A program made the translations under genes and the position numbers. 64,000 nt of DNA, taken from contig VCMS01000005.1 in NCBI GenBank assembly GCA_022539475.1, forward strand, positions 124,001 to 188,000. The letters run 5' to 3'. Numbering within the stretch: the stretch's first letter is position 1; each line of letters starts with the position of its first letter. Positions 27,453 to 60,942 of the stretch are shown here, one piece after another. Below the pieces are notes generated by a model. That model was not told the DNA's origin. It made no database searches and saw only the letters and a program-made list of their open reading frames with translations. This DNA is from Gracilaria domingensis (Eukaryota > Rhodophyta > Florideophyceae > Gracilariales > Gracilariaceae).

Positions 27453-28338
27453 ATGAAGAAGTATCTGGCGCCAATATTCAATGACTCATTTCGACGAATA
27501 TTGCAGCGGTCTTGCGAGAAATCGGAAGTGCTTCGATGCCGTAATGCATCGGCATACTCTTCCTTGCTCGATCAAGCTCGTCCCTTGAAAACAGAATAGG
27601 CTTTATGTAGGCTATGCGACCAGATTGTCGCTGCATCAGCATCAGGCGTCTATTTGACTGTCTTGCCCGATTTCATACCGAAGAGCAGAATCTCTCTTTT
27701 CCTTCTGCCTTCCATGCGAGCGATGCAATCCTTGTACGGAGACACCATAGCAGAACTCACCAGATGGCTATTCTCATTCCGCGAAAAAGCATATGCTCGG
27801 CCTTTGTTGTGAATCTGAGCAATTATTTCCCGTTATGCTCTCGTTCTCAGGCAAGTGTTCAAGATGTGATAGGTTCGAGAGAGGACCCGGTACGAAAAAA
27901 CCAGTACAACTCTTAGCTTCCCGAAGCCATTCGCAGAAGACAACTCACTGCTCACGAGAAGCCACAAGGTGAACAATTGAAATAAATTCTTTGTACAGAA
28001 CTGTAACATCAGAACGTCTGGATCCCTTCCGGAATGTCGATGCTCGTTGGCCAACTGTGAGTCAGCTCTTCAGTTCGGACAGTTCTACGATGACGATGAC
28101 TGCAGCGTTTGTTAAGATTCATCGGGAACCATATATGTGGCAATAAATGAACTGTGGACCGCTGCGCACAATCTGCACAGGAAACAAGAGCTACGAAGTG
28201 CACGTTCCCAAATCATCTCGCGTGTTTAGAAATTAGGATCGACGGTTAACCATTCCAAATACACTCAAAAACAGTAAGCGGTTTGGATTGAGGTGAAGAA
28301 GACGCGGCAACATAGGGCACGGTGAACCTATTCGCATT
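27453..28338. other. Intergenic between convergent genes
   Basis: No supported gene; open frames are short and without domains. No strong repeats noticed. Confidence 0.4.
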
Positions 28339-29528
28339 TTACGGCTTTTGTTGCGCCGCAAGGATTTCCTCCACCTCATCACGAGCCAAGGAATAAATCT
28401 GTCCACAAAACTCGCATGTTGCTTCAAGAAACACATAGAAATATAGGGTAAGTACAATGAAATAAATGACAGACTGAACACTGAAGGAAGAGACGTACCT
28501 TCAATGCAGCCATGATCCAAGAGCAGTTGCCGGATTTCGATTTCTGGTATGAGCGCTACCGTTCGTTTCACTCGCTCAATTCCGCATTGGCAATAGTATC
28601 GTGGCGACGATGAAGCAAGCTTCATGGGGGACAGCTCAGCCATGAGCTCACTAACAATCTGTTCTGGGGTCATTCCGGCCCTTATTATCTCTGTAGGTGC
28701 TCCCAGCGCTCTGACATTCTTCTCCACGAGTTCTGCACTTCGGGACGAAGCACCGGGTAACAACTGCAGCAAATAACCACCCGCCGCTGTGACGTTGCCT
28801 TCCGAAGAGACGTATACACCTGCTCCAAGTGCTGAAGGAGTTTGTTCAGATTCGAGCAAATACATGGCAAGGTCCTCCGCGACCTGGCCCGATGTAATCC
28901 GCACAATGCCCGTGTATGGCTGTTTGCTGTATACGCTATCCCTGACAACGGCGACGATACCTGAGCCGATTGCGCCAGGCACATCGAAAGAGCCTTCTTT
29001 GAACGGTAGCTGCACATTGGGGTCGCCGACGTAACCTCTGACTTGTCCTACGCCATTCGAAATGGCGGTGATGCCCTTAATAGGTCCCGAGCCACGAAAT
29101 TCGACTTGCAGGGTCTCGCCATCCTTCTTTCCACTACTCATGAGCAATGCACAAGACAAAGCTCTGCCGAATGCTGTGGAGGCCACAGGACTGGTACGGT
29201 GTAACCTGGTAGCGCCGCTGACAAGACCGGTACATGACACGACGCTACACGACACCTCACCGTTTGCACTGATGGTACGTACCATGGTATCACCAGGAAC
29301 CGGACCCTTCAGAAAGAGCTTTTCGAACGGGAGAGGGTCATCGTGGTGCGGAGGGGGATCGGAAGGGCTGGCCGCATGGCACGAAGCATGGCGCGCTAAG
29401 CGAGACGTGGACAGGGAATACTTGCGGCGCGGCGGGCAGGAGAGGGGGTAGAGAGTGTCCGTGAGCGGTGCGGCAAAGGAGGACGGCGACAATGGCTGTA
29501 GCAGAAACGCAGCCGGAGCCCGTGCCAT
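28339..29528 (-). CDS. hslO: Plastid-type redox chaperone HSP33, two exons
   Basis: Exons 28499-29528 and 28339-28421 encode 370 residues; the 77-bp intron starts GTACGT and ends TTGAAG. The first 70 or so residues are Ser/Pro/Arg-rich, as in a transit peptide. The body resembles HSP33: VRTISANGEV, GSGPIKG, VRGYVGDP, GAIGSGIVAVVRD, PYTGIV and GAGVYVSSEGNVTAAGGYLLQLLPG. The redox zinc centre is split by the intron: CQC in exon 1 and CEFC in exon 2, giving the expected C-x-C ... C-x-x-C set. On oxidation HSP33 releases zinc and binds unfolded proteins, so this should protect the stroma from oxidative stress. The start is the ATG at 29528; upstream codons in frame lack an ATG. Confidence 0.92.
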
Positions 29529-29886
29529 GGTTCGGTTTGGAAAACGACGTTGGCAAAGAGCGATGCGTCTTCGGCGCGCGTTGATCTGTCGCGGTGAGAT
29601 CAACAGCGCATCGAGCTCAAGCGCCGTGGATCGTTTCCCGGCACCACGTGGCCACGACTTCAAGCGGGGGGCCTCTCACCAGTTGGTCGGACCGACTCGG
29701 TCCCATACTCTAATGAAATTGCAACTTGTGTCAGTCGAATCAAAGCCAAGCGACGCTGTGGCGTAAGCGCTGTTGTTCACCGTCTGGCCTTGTCTTTCGC
29801 GCCGCCCCCGATGTTGGTCTCTCCTGCGACCGTCCGCCAGCGCGCTTCGGCCCCGCGCTCAGTTCACCCGCAGCTGCTCGTCTGCT
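29529..29886. promoter_or_regulatory. Shared divergent promoter region
   Basis: A 358-bp GC-rich gap between the start codons of HSP33 (-) and ERGIC3 (+). Both promoters and leaders must lie here. I see no clear TATA box. Confidence 0.5.
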
Positions 29887-31110
29887 ATGATGACCCTTCC
29901 TCAACGAGCAAACGGCCCCGAGCAACATGGGTTGGCTAGTGGGTACGCGCGGTTCATGCGCTCGTTGGATGCGTTTTCGCGTATGATGAAGGTGCCAGAG
30001 GACTTGCGTACGCAGTCCACCGTCGGTGGCACCATTTCGCTCATTTCATTTGTGGTCATATCTGTTCTGTTTCTTACAGAATTGTGGTCGTATCTGACGC
30101 CGAAGCGCACCACAACGCTGTCGGTCGATGCGGGCGTCGGCGAAACTTTGCGTATCTACCTCGATGTCGACTTCCCGCACGTCAATTGCGAGGTTATGGG
30201 TGTCGATGCACTGGACATTGGTGGAACTATGCAGTTGGAGATTACCAATCATATGTTCAAGACGCCCATCGACCACAAGGGACGGAAAGTTGATGGTGAC
30301 ATACGGACAAAGTTGGAGGCACCACAACGACAGGCGGCTGCCTCTCCATCCCCATGGCCGAACGCTTGTGGTAGCTGTATGGGCGCTGGTTTGACCGGCA
30401 AAGAGTGCTGTAACACATGCGCTGATGTGCGCAAAATGTATGAAAAAAGGGGCTGGCTGCTTACTGACTTAACTAACATACCACAATGCATACGCGAGGG
30501 TATCAAAACCATAACACCAGGCACTTTTGACGAGCGATATGGATGTAACATTCACGGACACATTGAAATCTCCAAAGTTGCGGGACGAATCAATCTCACA
30601 CCTGGCCATTCATTCCAATTTCATGGCCATACGCTGCACGATTTAAGCGCAGTCCGAGACCATAAACTGGACCTTAGTCATCGTGTCAACAAGCTCTGGT
30701 TTGGCGAACCATATCCAGGACAGGTGAATCCTCTGGATGGTGTCTCCAAACATGCGACACGAGCGCAAGACGCAATGGGTGCCCACGAATACTTCATCCG
30801 CGTGGTGCCCACAACTTACAAACTGCCGTTTTCGCGGACGTTGCGAACCAACCAGTATTCACAGTCGTACTTCTTCCGTCGAAGTGACGCCAGTCAAGGC
30901 TCGCAGATAATGCCCGGAGTGTTTTTGAACTATGATTTGAGTCCTATTCATGTTGAGGTAGAGGAATCGCGGCGATCGTTTTTACACTTTTTGGTTCAAT
31001 TATGTGCGATTGTTGGAGGAGTGTTCACTGTGGCCTCCATGTTGTCGACGTTCATGGACGACGTGGTGCTCCGAGCTGTGCGAAAACGACAGGTGGGCAA
31101 ACTAATGTAA
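29887..31110 (+). CDS. ERGIC3: ER-Golgi cargo receptor, Erv46/ERGIC3
   Basis: A 407-residue membrane protein from the ATG at 29887. The N-terminus has the family pattern (LDAFSRMMKVPEDLRTQSTVGGTIS) followed by a membrane helix (about 52-72). The lumenal domain shows DVDFPHVNCEVMGVDALD, the cysteine cluster CGSCMGAGLTGKECCNTCADV, GCNIHGHIEISKVAGRINLTPGHSF, and the late PGVFLNYDLSPIHVEVEE before the second membrane helix (near 370-390). Erv46 cycles between ER and Golgi in COPII/COPI vesicles, retrieving soluble proteins. The family usually has about 380-415 residues, so this is full length. The C-terminus is RKRQVGKLM, basic, without a classical dilysine end. Confidence 0.95.
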   Translation: MMTLPQRANGPEQHGLASGYARFMRSLDAFSRMMKVPEDLRTQSTVGGTISLISFVVISVLFLTELWSYLTPKRTTTLSVDAGVGETLRIYLDVDFPHVNCEVMGVDALDIGGTMQLEITNHMFKTPIDHKGRKVDGDIRTKLEAPQRQAAASPSPWPNACGSCMGAGLTGKECCNTCADVRKMYEKRGWLLTDLTNIPQCIREGIKTITPGTFDERYGCNIHGHIEISKVAGRINLTPGHSFQFHGHTLHDLSAVRDHKLDLSHRVNKLWFGEPYPGQVNPLDGVSKHATRAQDAMGAHEYFIRVVPTTYKLPFSRTLRTNQYSQSYFFRRSDASQGSQIMPGVFLNYDLSPIHVEVEESRRSFLHFLVQLCAIVGGVFTVASMLSTFMDDVVLRAVRKRQVGKLM

Positions 31111-31989: not shown

Positions 31990-31995
31990 AAAAAA
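31990..31995 (-). terminator. Pol III terminator of the permuted tRNA gene
   Basis: Six T residues on the minus strand, 16 nt beyond the 5' tRNA part, exactly where a Pol III transcript reading 3' part, linker, 5' part would end. Confidence 0.75.
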
Positions 31996-32011
31996 TACCG
32001 GGGACATCGCT

Positions 32012-32102
32012 TAGCGCCTTAGACCACTCGGCCACGCTGCCTCATCCTTTGACAGCGGTGAGATTCGAACTCACGCATACAGAGTATACTACGACCTGAA
32101 CG
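32012..32102 (-). tRNA. Circularly permuted tRNA-Leu (anticodon CAG)
   Basis: Read on the minus strand, the order is 3' part (32102-32051), a 9-nt linker (32050-32042), then 5' part (32041-32012). The 3' part has an anticodon loop TTCAGGT (anticodon CAG at 32098-32096), stem CGTAG, a 14-nt variable arm, T arm GTGAG/TTCGAAT/CTCAC and acceptor CGCTGTC. The 5' part starts with acceptor GGCAGCG, then TG and a D arm with GAGTGGTCTAA, ending GCGCTA. Joined as circle then cut at the linker, these form an 82-nt cloverleaf: acceptors pair 7/7 with one G-U, and CTA plus CG restore the anticodon stem CTACG against CGTAG. The join is ambiguous by one A. A Pol III T-run follows the 5' part. B box (T arm) precedes A box (D arm). 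Permuted tRNAs are known from Cyanidioschyzon and some green algae. Confidence 0.9.
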
Positions 32103-32507
32103 TTGCGCGCGAACTCCCGATGTGCAAAGCTTGATTTTTTTCAATCTTTAAACAGAAAATGAACGGGTGAATACACGTGTTCGCGTATTTGCGGTATAGG
32201 CATGTGTTTACATGAATTGCACAAACAAGGCTGGGTTGCCATGATACGTTCGCGCTACTCCACGCATTTGTGCGATGGAAACCGCTCACCTGGCGCGCTA
32301 GCCGGCGTCGTCCGGTCCAGTCTTTCGACAGCAGCTGACGATATTCCTCTTGAAACTTGTTCTCACACACGGTTGCTCACGCCTGCTAAGAAGTTAACAC
32401 AGGCTCTGACCCACAGCCCGCTGCTGCTCTCCAGCCAGCATACGCGTTACGCCCCCCGCGGTTTGTGACACTCTCCGTTCGGTCTTAACCCCATCTGTTT
32501 CCGCAAC

Positions 32508-33698
32508 ATGTCGCAAGAAGCTTCTGCCAATGACCCCTCAGGAACTGCAAAGACTGCGCCAGTCTCTGAGCCAAAGCCTGACCCGAGCGGACAGTCCCAA
32601 CATGCTGCAGAAAATGCACCGGCCACCACCGAACCCAAGACCACGGTTGCTGCGAACCCCATTACCTTCGACTTGACACCCGCTCCGACTGCCCTTTCCC
32701 GTCTTCAGCATCAAATGGATCAAACGTCTGAGAAGTTCGCAGCAAGAGCTGCCCGTTTTGGTGCCACGGACCTCAAGAAACATGCAACAGAAATCGACGT
32801 GCTTGGTGCACGTCGCGCGCATTCACGCCAGGGATTTATGTCGGGATTTGATCCTCAAGCCCCCGATCAGCAGAGCCGACGTGAAATGCGCGCAAAACGC
32901 TTTGGCGATCAGTTGCCTGTTGATGCTGAGCAGACTGCACGTGATGCCCGTGCGCAAAGGTTTGGCGGAGAGGCCCGTCAACTCGTTGGGTTGGCGCGTG
33001 TATGTGATGATGCACTTGAACGCCGTCGGGACGTCGCTGTGGGTGAAGTCGCGCGTCCGGAAGTGCTACATGTGTTTGGAGTTGACATGCTTAATACCTC
33101 GGAAGTTTTACGTCATTTCCAGGAGTATGGGCCGTCTTGGTGTGAGTGGCTCAATGACTCCTCCTGCAATGTTGCCTTTGAGGACCCGCACACGATGCGA
33201 AGAGCGATACGCGGTTTAACTGAGCATGGTAAACAGCTTGGCATAGATGAAGTGGTCAATGATGCCCCAGAAGATAAAATGGATGACGGGGAAGGTGCCG
33301 GTTTGAGCCTAGCGGTTGCTGGAGATGGTACTCTTGCGGAGGACTTGACATGGCGTAGCGGAAAGCCGTTTGAAAAGGGTGATACGGTTATTCCCATATG
33401 GATTCGACAAGCTACAGAGAAGGATAAACGACCGGAAATGCCAAATCCAAAAAGTAGGTGGAGTCGAAGTATCAACTCCAAAAAGCGAATCAGTTCTAGT
33501 TCTAATCGACGGAACAGTGATACTACAAGTAGTCGTAGGCGGAGACGAAGGAGTGATACCGACGCCGTGGATGTGGCTCAGCGACCCAGTCGAAGAGGAC
33601 CATCACTCAAAGTTCATCAAGACCGGAAAATCGCCATTCTCAAGGCTCAAACGAAGAAGGTTACGAAGATGGATCTCGATCGCGCCTTGGGTTCATAG
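32508..33698 (+). CDS. NCBP3-like nuclear mRNA cap-associated RNA-binding protein
   Basis: A 396-residue protein from the ATG at 32508. The first 60 residues are disordered. Residues about 80-150 carry three copies of a short basic motif R-A-x-R-F-G (RAARFG, RAKRFG, RAQRFG), as in SARNP/Tho1-type mRNA export factors. Residues about 183-240 match the RRM-like domain of NCBP3: VLHVFGVDMLNTSEVLRHF, then the hallmark EWLNDSSCNVAF. A later segment (IPIWIRQATEKDKRP) corresponds to the second conserved NCBP3 block. The tail is Arg/Ser-rich (SSRRRRRRSD), as in nuclear RNA proteins. NCBP3 joins the cap-binding complex and promotes mRNA export, so a nuclear export adaptor is likely. Confidence 0.85.
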   Translation: MSQEASANDPSGTAKTAPVSEPKPDPSGQSQHAAENAPATTEPKTTVAANPITFDLTPAPTALSRLQHQMDQTSEKFAARAARFGATDLKKHATEIDVLGARRAHSRQGFMSGFDPQAPDQQSRREMRAKRFGDQLPVDAEQTARDARAQRFGGEARQLVGLARVCDDALERRRDVAVGEVARPEVLHVFGVDMLNTSEVLRHFQEYGPSWCEWLNDSSCNVAFEDPHTMRRAIRGLTEHGKQLGIDEVVNDAPEDKMDDGEGAGLSLAVAGDGTLAEDLTWRSGKPFEKGDTVIPIWIRQATEKDKRPEMPNPKSRWSRSINSKKRISSSSNRRNSDTTSSRRRRRRSDTDAVDVAQRPSRRGPSLKVHQDRKIAILKAQTKKVTKMDLDRALGS

Positions 33699-60854: not shown

Positions 60855-60863
60855 GAAGGAATT

Positions 60864-60942
60864 GAAAGCGGTGAGATTCGAACTCACGCCCCGGAGGACT
60901 AGTGCCTTAAACTAGCGCCTTAGACCACTCGGCCACGCTTCC
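60864..60942 (-). tRNA. tRNA-Leu (anticodon AAG), conventional order
   Basis: A 79-nt class II tRNA with normal order. Acceptor GGAAGCG pairs with CGCTTTC (one G-U). The D arm (GAGTGGTCTAA loop), anticodon stem CTAGT/ACTAG around TTAAGGC (AAG at 34-36), an 11-nt variable arm and a T arm GTGAG/TTCGAAT/CTCAC follow. It reads CUU and, with A34 modified to inosine, other CUN codons. It shares D-arm and T-arm words with the permuted tRNA-Leu(CAG) at 32012-32102. No intron. Confidence 0.95.

Follow-up and report, generated by a model that had tools for sequence, protein, structure and literature searches.

A probable circularly permuted nuclear gene for tRNA-Leu(CAG) in a florideophyte red alga

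Circularly permuted tRNA genes, in which the 3' half of a tRNA lies upstream of its 5' half, are already known from Cyanidioschyzon, prasinophytes, nucleomorphs and Thermofilum. A 2014 review (PMC3978253) catalogues 34 such genes of one archaeon and six unicellular algae; their junctions fall at positions 15/16, 20/21, 37/38, 50/51 and 59/60. The green alga Auxenochlorella is a further case (PMC12633428). In the open-access titles and abstracts searched, no permuted tRNA is reported for a red alga besides C. merolae. The junction position serves to classify the known permuted genes and is not a defining trait of the family.

Here, we describe a nuclear locus of a florideophyte where tRNA-Leu(CAG), cognate to CUG, is very likely encoded by a functional gene in circularly permuted form. 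Neither the host lineage nor the junction position of this gene occurs among the 34 genes listed in PMC3978253. The permuted Leu(CAG) gene of C. merolae (PMC3978253, Table 1) likewise comes from a red alga, encodes the same isoacceptor and has the 3' half first; its intervening sequence is 9 bp compared to 8 nt here, with no extra intron listed. On the other hand, its junction is at 37/38, which places the anticodon in the 5' half, whereas our locus has junction 29/30 and the anticodon in the 3' half. The likeness is one of listed features. The permuted Leu(UAA) of C. merolae (type I; PMC3978253) shares with our locus an HBh' motif at a junction away from 37/38, but it combines a 20/21 junction with a 37/38 intron, while the Leu(UAA) gene found here is in normal order with a D-arm intron. 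The permuted tRNAs of prasinophytes and of the Bigelowiella nucleomorph are nuclear or nucleomorph algal genes, too, and mostly of class II, but nearly all of them show, unlike our locus, a 37/38 junction with hBH motifs (PMC3978253). The permuted tRNA-iMet and tRNA-Tyr of Thermofilum pendens are archaeal, with junction 59/60 and an encoded CCA (PMC3978253, PMC3218864). Finally, the archaeal split tRNA-Lys(CUU) is joined at 30/31, i.e., within the anticodon stem and one position from 29/30, but from two separate transcripts joined in trans (PMC3218864), unlike the single transcript predicted for the permuted locus.

The locus is part of a 64-kb window (the whole stretch of DNA that was analysed) and is flanked by two frames, one ERGIC3-like with its end at 31110 and one NCBP3-like with its start at 32508. 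Direct reading of the minus strand from 32102 to 32012 yields the 3' half of tRNA-Leu(CAG) (53 nt), an 8-nt linker and then the 5' half (30 nt) of this one and the same tRNA, i.e., the order of a circularly permuted gene. Including the flanks, the minus-strand order is leader, 3' half, linker, 5' half, trailer and T6 (Table 1). The 3' half comprises the anticodon hairpin CG-TTCAGGT-CG, TAG, the variable arm, the T arm, the 3' strand of the acceptor and A73, while the 5' half holds GGCAGCG, T8 and G9, the D arm, G26 and CTA. The linker AAGGATGA contains neither promoter nor terminator, and its length is inside the 1-74 bp range of catalogued permuted genes. Having only 8 nt between the halves and no signal seen in between speaks for a single transcript, the halves of split tRNA genes being on separate ones. 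The first-pass annotation of this sequence had proposed the same permuted gene with a 9-nt linker and an 82-nt tRNA; these two lengths left A73 out of the tRNA and become 8 nt and 83 nt once it is counted.

Table 1. Features of the permuted locus, the comparison gene and normally ordered tRNA genes with D-arm inserts. Plain coordinates refer to the window, all others to contigs of the assembly.
Feature	Coordinates	Strand	Basis or details
TTTAAA (TATA-like), 50 nt upstream of the 3' half	32147..32152	minus	comparison with other tRNA genes
HBh' leader strand	32103..32118	minus	h' TCGC 32112-32109, H GCGC 32108-32105, AA 32104-32103
3' half of tRNA-Leu(CAG), positions 30-73, first in the predicted transcript	32050..32102	minus	direct reading, ARAGORN on rejoined sequence
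Linker, 8 nt, between mature 3' and 5' ends	32042..32049	minus	direct reading
5' half of tRNA-Leu(CAG), positions 1-29, second in the predicted transcript	32012..32041	minus	direct reading, ARAGORN on rejoined sequence
HBh' other strand and trailer	32001..32017	minus	H GCGC 32017-32014, bulge TAA 32013-32011, h' GCGA 32010-32007
T6, probable Pol III terminator	31990..31995	minus	direct reading, comparison with other tRNA genes
Ordinary tRNA-Leu(AAG), comparison gene	60863..60942	minus	Rfam, ARAGORN
tRNA-Leu(UAA), 16-nt D-loop insert (L080)	G000:C1:77138-77239	minus	
tRNA-Ala(UGC), 12-nt D-arm insert (L114)	G000:C48:152100-152400		
tRNA-Arg(UCU), 10-nt D-arm insert (L115)	G000:C13:59820-60010		
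tRNA-Cys(GCA), 11-nt D-arm insert (L117)	G000:C330:33600-33760		

Rejoining the halves such that CTA is followed by CG results in a class II cloverleaf of 83 nt that has a long variable arm, the anticodon CAG, G37 and A73, as expected in the first pass, where CTA and CG were taken to complete the anticodon stem. ARAGORN reports tRNA-Leu(cag) for the rejoined sequence and makes no call for the locus as written. Applied to the whole window, ARAGORN and Rfam find no tRNA at the permuted locus as written, the ordinary Leu(AAG) gene being the only one reported. The acceptor stem is paired at 7/7 positions (one pair is G-U), in agreement with the full pairing claimed before. Both halves closely resemble Leu(AAG). 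Relative to this gene, pair 3:70 has changed from A-T to C-G; this change, also pointed out in the first pass, is the sole paired one that spans both halves. The anticodon-stem pairs 30:40 and 31:39 differ from Leu(AAG) as well, but both are located within the 3' half.

We also used a covariance model of the permuted order (T arm, acceptor, linker, acceptor, D arm), for which 17 ordinary tRNAs of this genome were permuted in silico, with the permuted locus itself left out. At the locus (L033), the whole model is covered with a score of 60.2 bits (E 1.1e-16 in 64 kb), while the other three matches in the window reach 16.3 and 14.9 bits (both at the Leu(AAG) gene) and 5.7 bits. When 56 of the 66 loci are scanned, 100 matches pass E 1. 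The best of them besides the permuted locus (45, 35.9 and 31.2 bits) all belong to one mitochondrial locus, where tightly packed neighbouring tRNA genes imitate the permuted order; the nuclear loci among the 56 score at most 23.5 bits. For 24 additional loci the maximum is 20.1 bits, for three more it is 21.7 bits. Weak matches at ordinary tRNA loci were discounted, as they consist of one real arm plus flanking sequence or a neighbouring organelle tRNA. Both this covariance-model match and the ARAGORN call side with the permuted tRNA.

With regard to folding energies, RNAfold predicts a minimum of -29.4 kcal/mol for the rejoined tRNA versus -27.8 kcal/mol when the cloverleaf is enforced, i.e., the minimum fold is not a cloverleaf and the gap is 1.6 kcal/mol. 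The respective values are -27.3 and -24.1 kcal/mol for the ordinary Leu(AAG) (gap 3.2) and -33.1 and -29.2 kcal/mol for the ordinary Leu(UAG) (gap 3.9). According to these predictions, the rejoined cloverleaf would be similar in stability to the cloverleaves of ordinary leucine tRNAs.

In the unconstrained fold of the precursor, a helix forms between leader and trailer. Its core corresponds to a relaxed BHB (HBh', as defined in a figure legend of PMC3978253), in which TCGC and GCGC of the leader are contiguous and face GCGC, the bulge TAA and GCGA. The H strand GCGC at 32017-32014 is at the same time the end of the 5' half, and GGGA of the leader (32118-32115) lengthens the helix. By convention, cuts are placed after the second bulge base and at AA^C. 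The expected cuts are 32103/32102 (AA^C) and 32012/32011 (TA^A), such that CTA would be joined to CG, as the anticodon stem needs. The product junction is 29/30 within the anticodon stem; 28/29 yields an identical product, and both are outside the five catalogued positions. Of 200,000 dinucleotide shuffles, 289 show the exact 8/8 pairing, as do 12 of 20,000 flanks taken at random from the window; the effective chance is a few times larger since the HBh' register was picked after inspection of the sequence and 28/29 gives the same product. The energy of the leader-trailer duplex is only moderately unusual (reached by 68/2000 shuffles and 92/2000 random flanks).

A genome search for a conventional Leu(CAG) gene had been named as the refuting test in the first-pass annotation; none was found in the 77.9-Mb draft assembly by heuristic D-arm, T-arm and full-length searches. 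The D-arm pattern (at most 2 mismatches) matches 24 times in the whole assembly, and the five exact matches are the permuted locus, three Leu(AAG) genes and one Leu(UAG) gene. A second D-arm pattern has six matches, namely two Ser(GCU), Thr, Ser(CGA), Ser(UGA) and Leu(CAA). By reading, the Ser(CGA) (L062, C17), Ser(UGA) (L064, C91) and Leu(CAA) (L065, C227) genes contain 37/38 introns; for these, ARAGORN makes no call at L062 and L064 and reports Ile(gat) at L065. The T-arm pattern (at most 3 mismatches) results in 69 matches, 44 of which were read, and adds Leu(UAA). Repeated T-arm-like matches (ACGGGAGTTCGAATCCCGC and kin) were rejected as tRNAs, given that the copies read share long flanks like a dispersed repeat and that ARAGORN calls none of them. 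When the full-length mature tRNA is used as query, we recover three Leu(AAG), Leu(UAG) and, in two pieces (query 25-83 and 1-30), the permuted locus. That is, within these heuristic searches of a draft assembly, all five leucine anticodons have at least one gene, CAG in permuted form only and the other four as normally ordered genes, two of them with introns. The overall tRNA list is a partial one, since Rfam scoring for tRNAs across the genome covered 63 of 3349 candidates. In the four frames of the window with Pfam support, 23 of the 153 leucine codons are CTG. A need for Leu(CAG) does not follow from this, since wobble may allow Leu(UAG) to read CTG.

A partial sampling with DNA queries revealed no second two-piece tRNA, with Gly, Asp, His, Glu and Tyr baits left unmatched; the same sampling gave partial matches for iMet (bases 1-61 or 8-61, four places) and Ile (three places). 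Thr(CGU), Thr(AGU), Ala(UGC) and Arg(CCU), which are permuted in C. merolae, have ordinary genes here.

The locus could also be a pseudogene, i.e., the remnant of a tandem tRNA-Leu duplication that has no outer halves and produces no tRNA, which we consider distinctly unlikely. Tandem duplication is the origin proposed for permuted genes in PMC3978253, and the nearness of both halves to Leu(AAG) fits such a history. Against it, the halves are fully paired, with a paired change at 3:70 and a locally re-paired anticodon stem, the pairing of leader and trailer yields the correct junction, and no remnants of outer halves were detected when leader and trailer were searched for them. Furthermore, a pseudogene would leave no Leu(CAG) among the genes found.

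A functional gene is also in line with the flanking signals. Besides TTTAAA, a run of As precedes the 3' half by about 39 nt. Six-base A/T runs within 70 nt upstream occur in 18 of 29 ordinary nuclear tRNA genes (for one of which, L116, just 34 nt upstream are covered) compared to 1409 of 5000 random window stretches, and 28 of the 29 genes have a run of at least four Ts within 40 nt downstream. The T6 of the permuted locus, already noted in the first pass, starts 17 nt past the junction and resembles these downstream T runs. Judged by such sequence comparison, both the TATA-like element and T6 are compatible with Pol III. In the permuted gene, the order of the A and B boxes is inverted. A candidate for the B-block subunit of TFIIIC is present (32.9 bits at G000:C25:489156-489398, 1991-aa frame), although the B-block model also matched 8/14 prokaryote controls, in four cases above the cut-off; an absence of TFIIIC is thus no valid argument for the inverted boxes.

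We infer that the permuted tRNA is transcribed, cleaved, ligated and charged, probably as follows. RNA polymerase III, guided by the upstream TATA-like element, would make one RNA of leader, 3' half, linker, 5' half and trailer, with T6 ending the transcript. Leader and trailer would pair, together with the end of the 5' half, in the HBh' motif, where the tRNA-splicing endonuclease (Sen2/Sen34) may cut at AA^C and TA^A. An RNA ligase would join positions 29 and 30 to a 91-nt circle, from which RNase P and tRNase Z would excise the 8-nt linker, and CCA addition would complete the mature tRNA. The genome encodes the ligase RtcB and two PF01974 proteins, one nearest to Sen34 structures and the other nearest to Sen2.

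It is highly improbable that the permuted gene is transcribed but matures by some other route or junction (28/29, or an end-joining ligase without HBh' cuts). The identity of the 28/29 and 29/30 products would allow for it, as would the HBh' motif itself, which has no helix h and would open part of the D stem, i.e., the H helix occupies positions 24-27, and the predicted precursor fold shows a non-native D arm and no exon helix h. On the other hand, the expected HBh' cuts coincide with the product junction, and HBh' junctions are listed for Leu(UAA) of C. merolae (PMC3978253). That an assembly error swapped the halves of an ordinary gene is hardly credible, since the assembly is a draft but the locus sits inside a 699,606-bp contig, and it is very unlikely that a swap would have left T6 and a leader-trailer helix along with a clean linker of 8 nt.

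Inserts within the D arm are found in four normally ordered tRNA genes, i.e., those for Leu(UAA), Ala(UGC), Arg(UCU) and Cys(GCA) (Table 1). These ectopic introns, like the splicing proteins above, speak in favour of a functional permuted gene. For the first three, ARAGORN recognises the expected tRNA once the insert is removed but makes no call while it is present; the RNAfold minimum fold of the joined Arg(UCU) is not a cloverleaf. Apart from its insert, the Cys(GCA) copy is identical to an intronless Cys gene. Each of the Ala, Arg and Cys inserts contains a CCA or CCAC whose complement, TGG/GTGG, lies in the D loop, and the Leu(UAA) insert is located at about the place of the 20/21 permutation of C. 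merolae Leu(UAA) (PMC3978253). D-arm introns also occur in C. merolae tRNAs (PMC9602550).

A florideophyte case would bring permuted tRNAs into the lineage of the large red seaweeds, and 29/30 would be a sixth junction position, inside the anticodon stem, beyond the five catalogued in PMC3978253. Permutation and ectopic tRNA introns would then occur together outside Cyanidiophyceae, and the gene would lend itself to studying how the splicing endonuclease of a eukaryote locates sites away from 37/38. Tentatively, one may also regard permuted tRNA-Leu(CAG) as an ancestral red-algal character whose ring opening point has moved eight positions since, a reading we find rather doubtful. Ancestry becomes more likely given that the same isoacceptor is permuted with near-equal linker length in Cyanidioschyzon and a florideophyte, while coincidence is quite possible since five or six class II isoacceptors turn up repeatedly in permuted form. 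If the character is ancestral, red algae would have retained a circular tRNA intermediate for most of their evolution, alongside a splicing system that tolerates ectopic D-arm introns. A Leu(CAG) survey of red-algal genomes makes ancient versus recent origin testable.

Concerning the genomic surroundings, the best named match of the mitochondrial Cox1 among the best 120 of 8000 matches is a cluster named for Gelidium sclerophyllum (92%). For the ERGIC3-like protein beside the locus, the best organism-named match is from Pyropia (45%), with closer matches at 48-78%. Both proteins support a red-algal host and suggest a florideophyte, probably one of the Gelidiales. Two contigs look like organelle genomes, i.e., C680 (179.8 kb) like a plastid and C679 (28.5 kb) like a mitochondrion. 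The end of the latter (G000:C679, L028-L032) carries tandem copies of a 659-bp unit with tRNA genes, which may be a genuine repeat or may have arisen artificially when a circular molecule was assembled. A short stretch at L106 (G000:C264:25250-25760) looks like part of a mitochondrial tRNA whose variable arm is long and is possibly mitochondrial DNA transferred to the nucleus. Within the nuclear window, a minus-strand frame at 28236-29663 contains an HSP33-family domain (Pfam, 220.8 bits).
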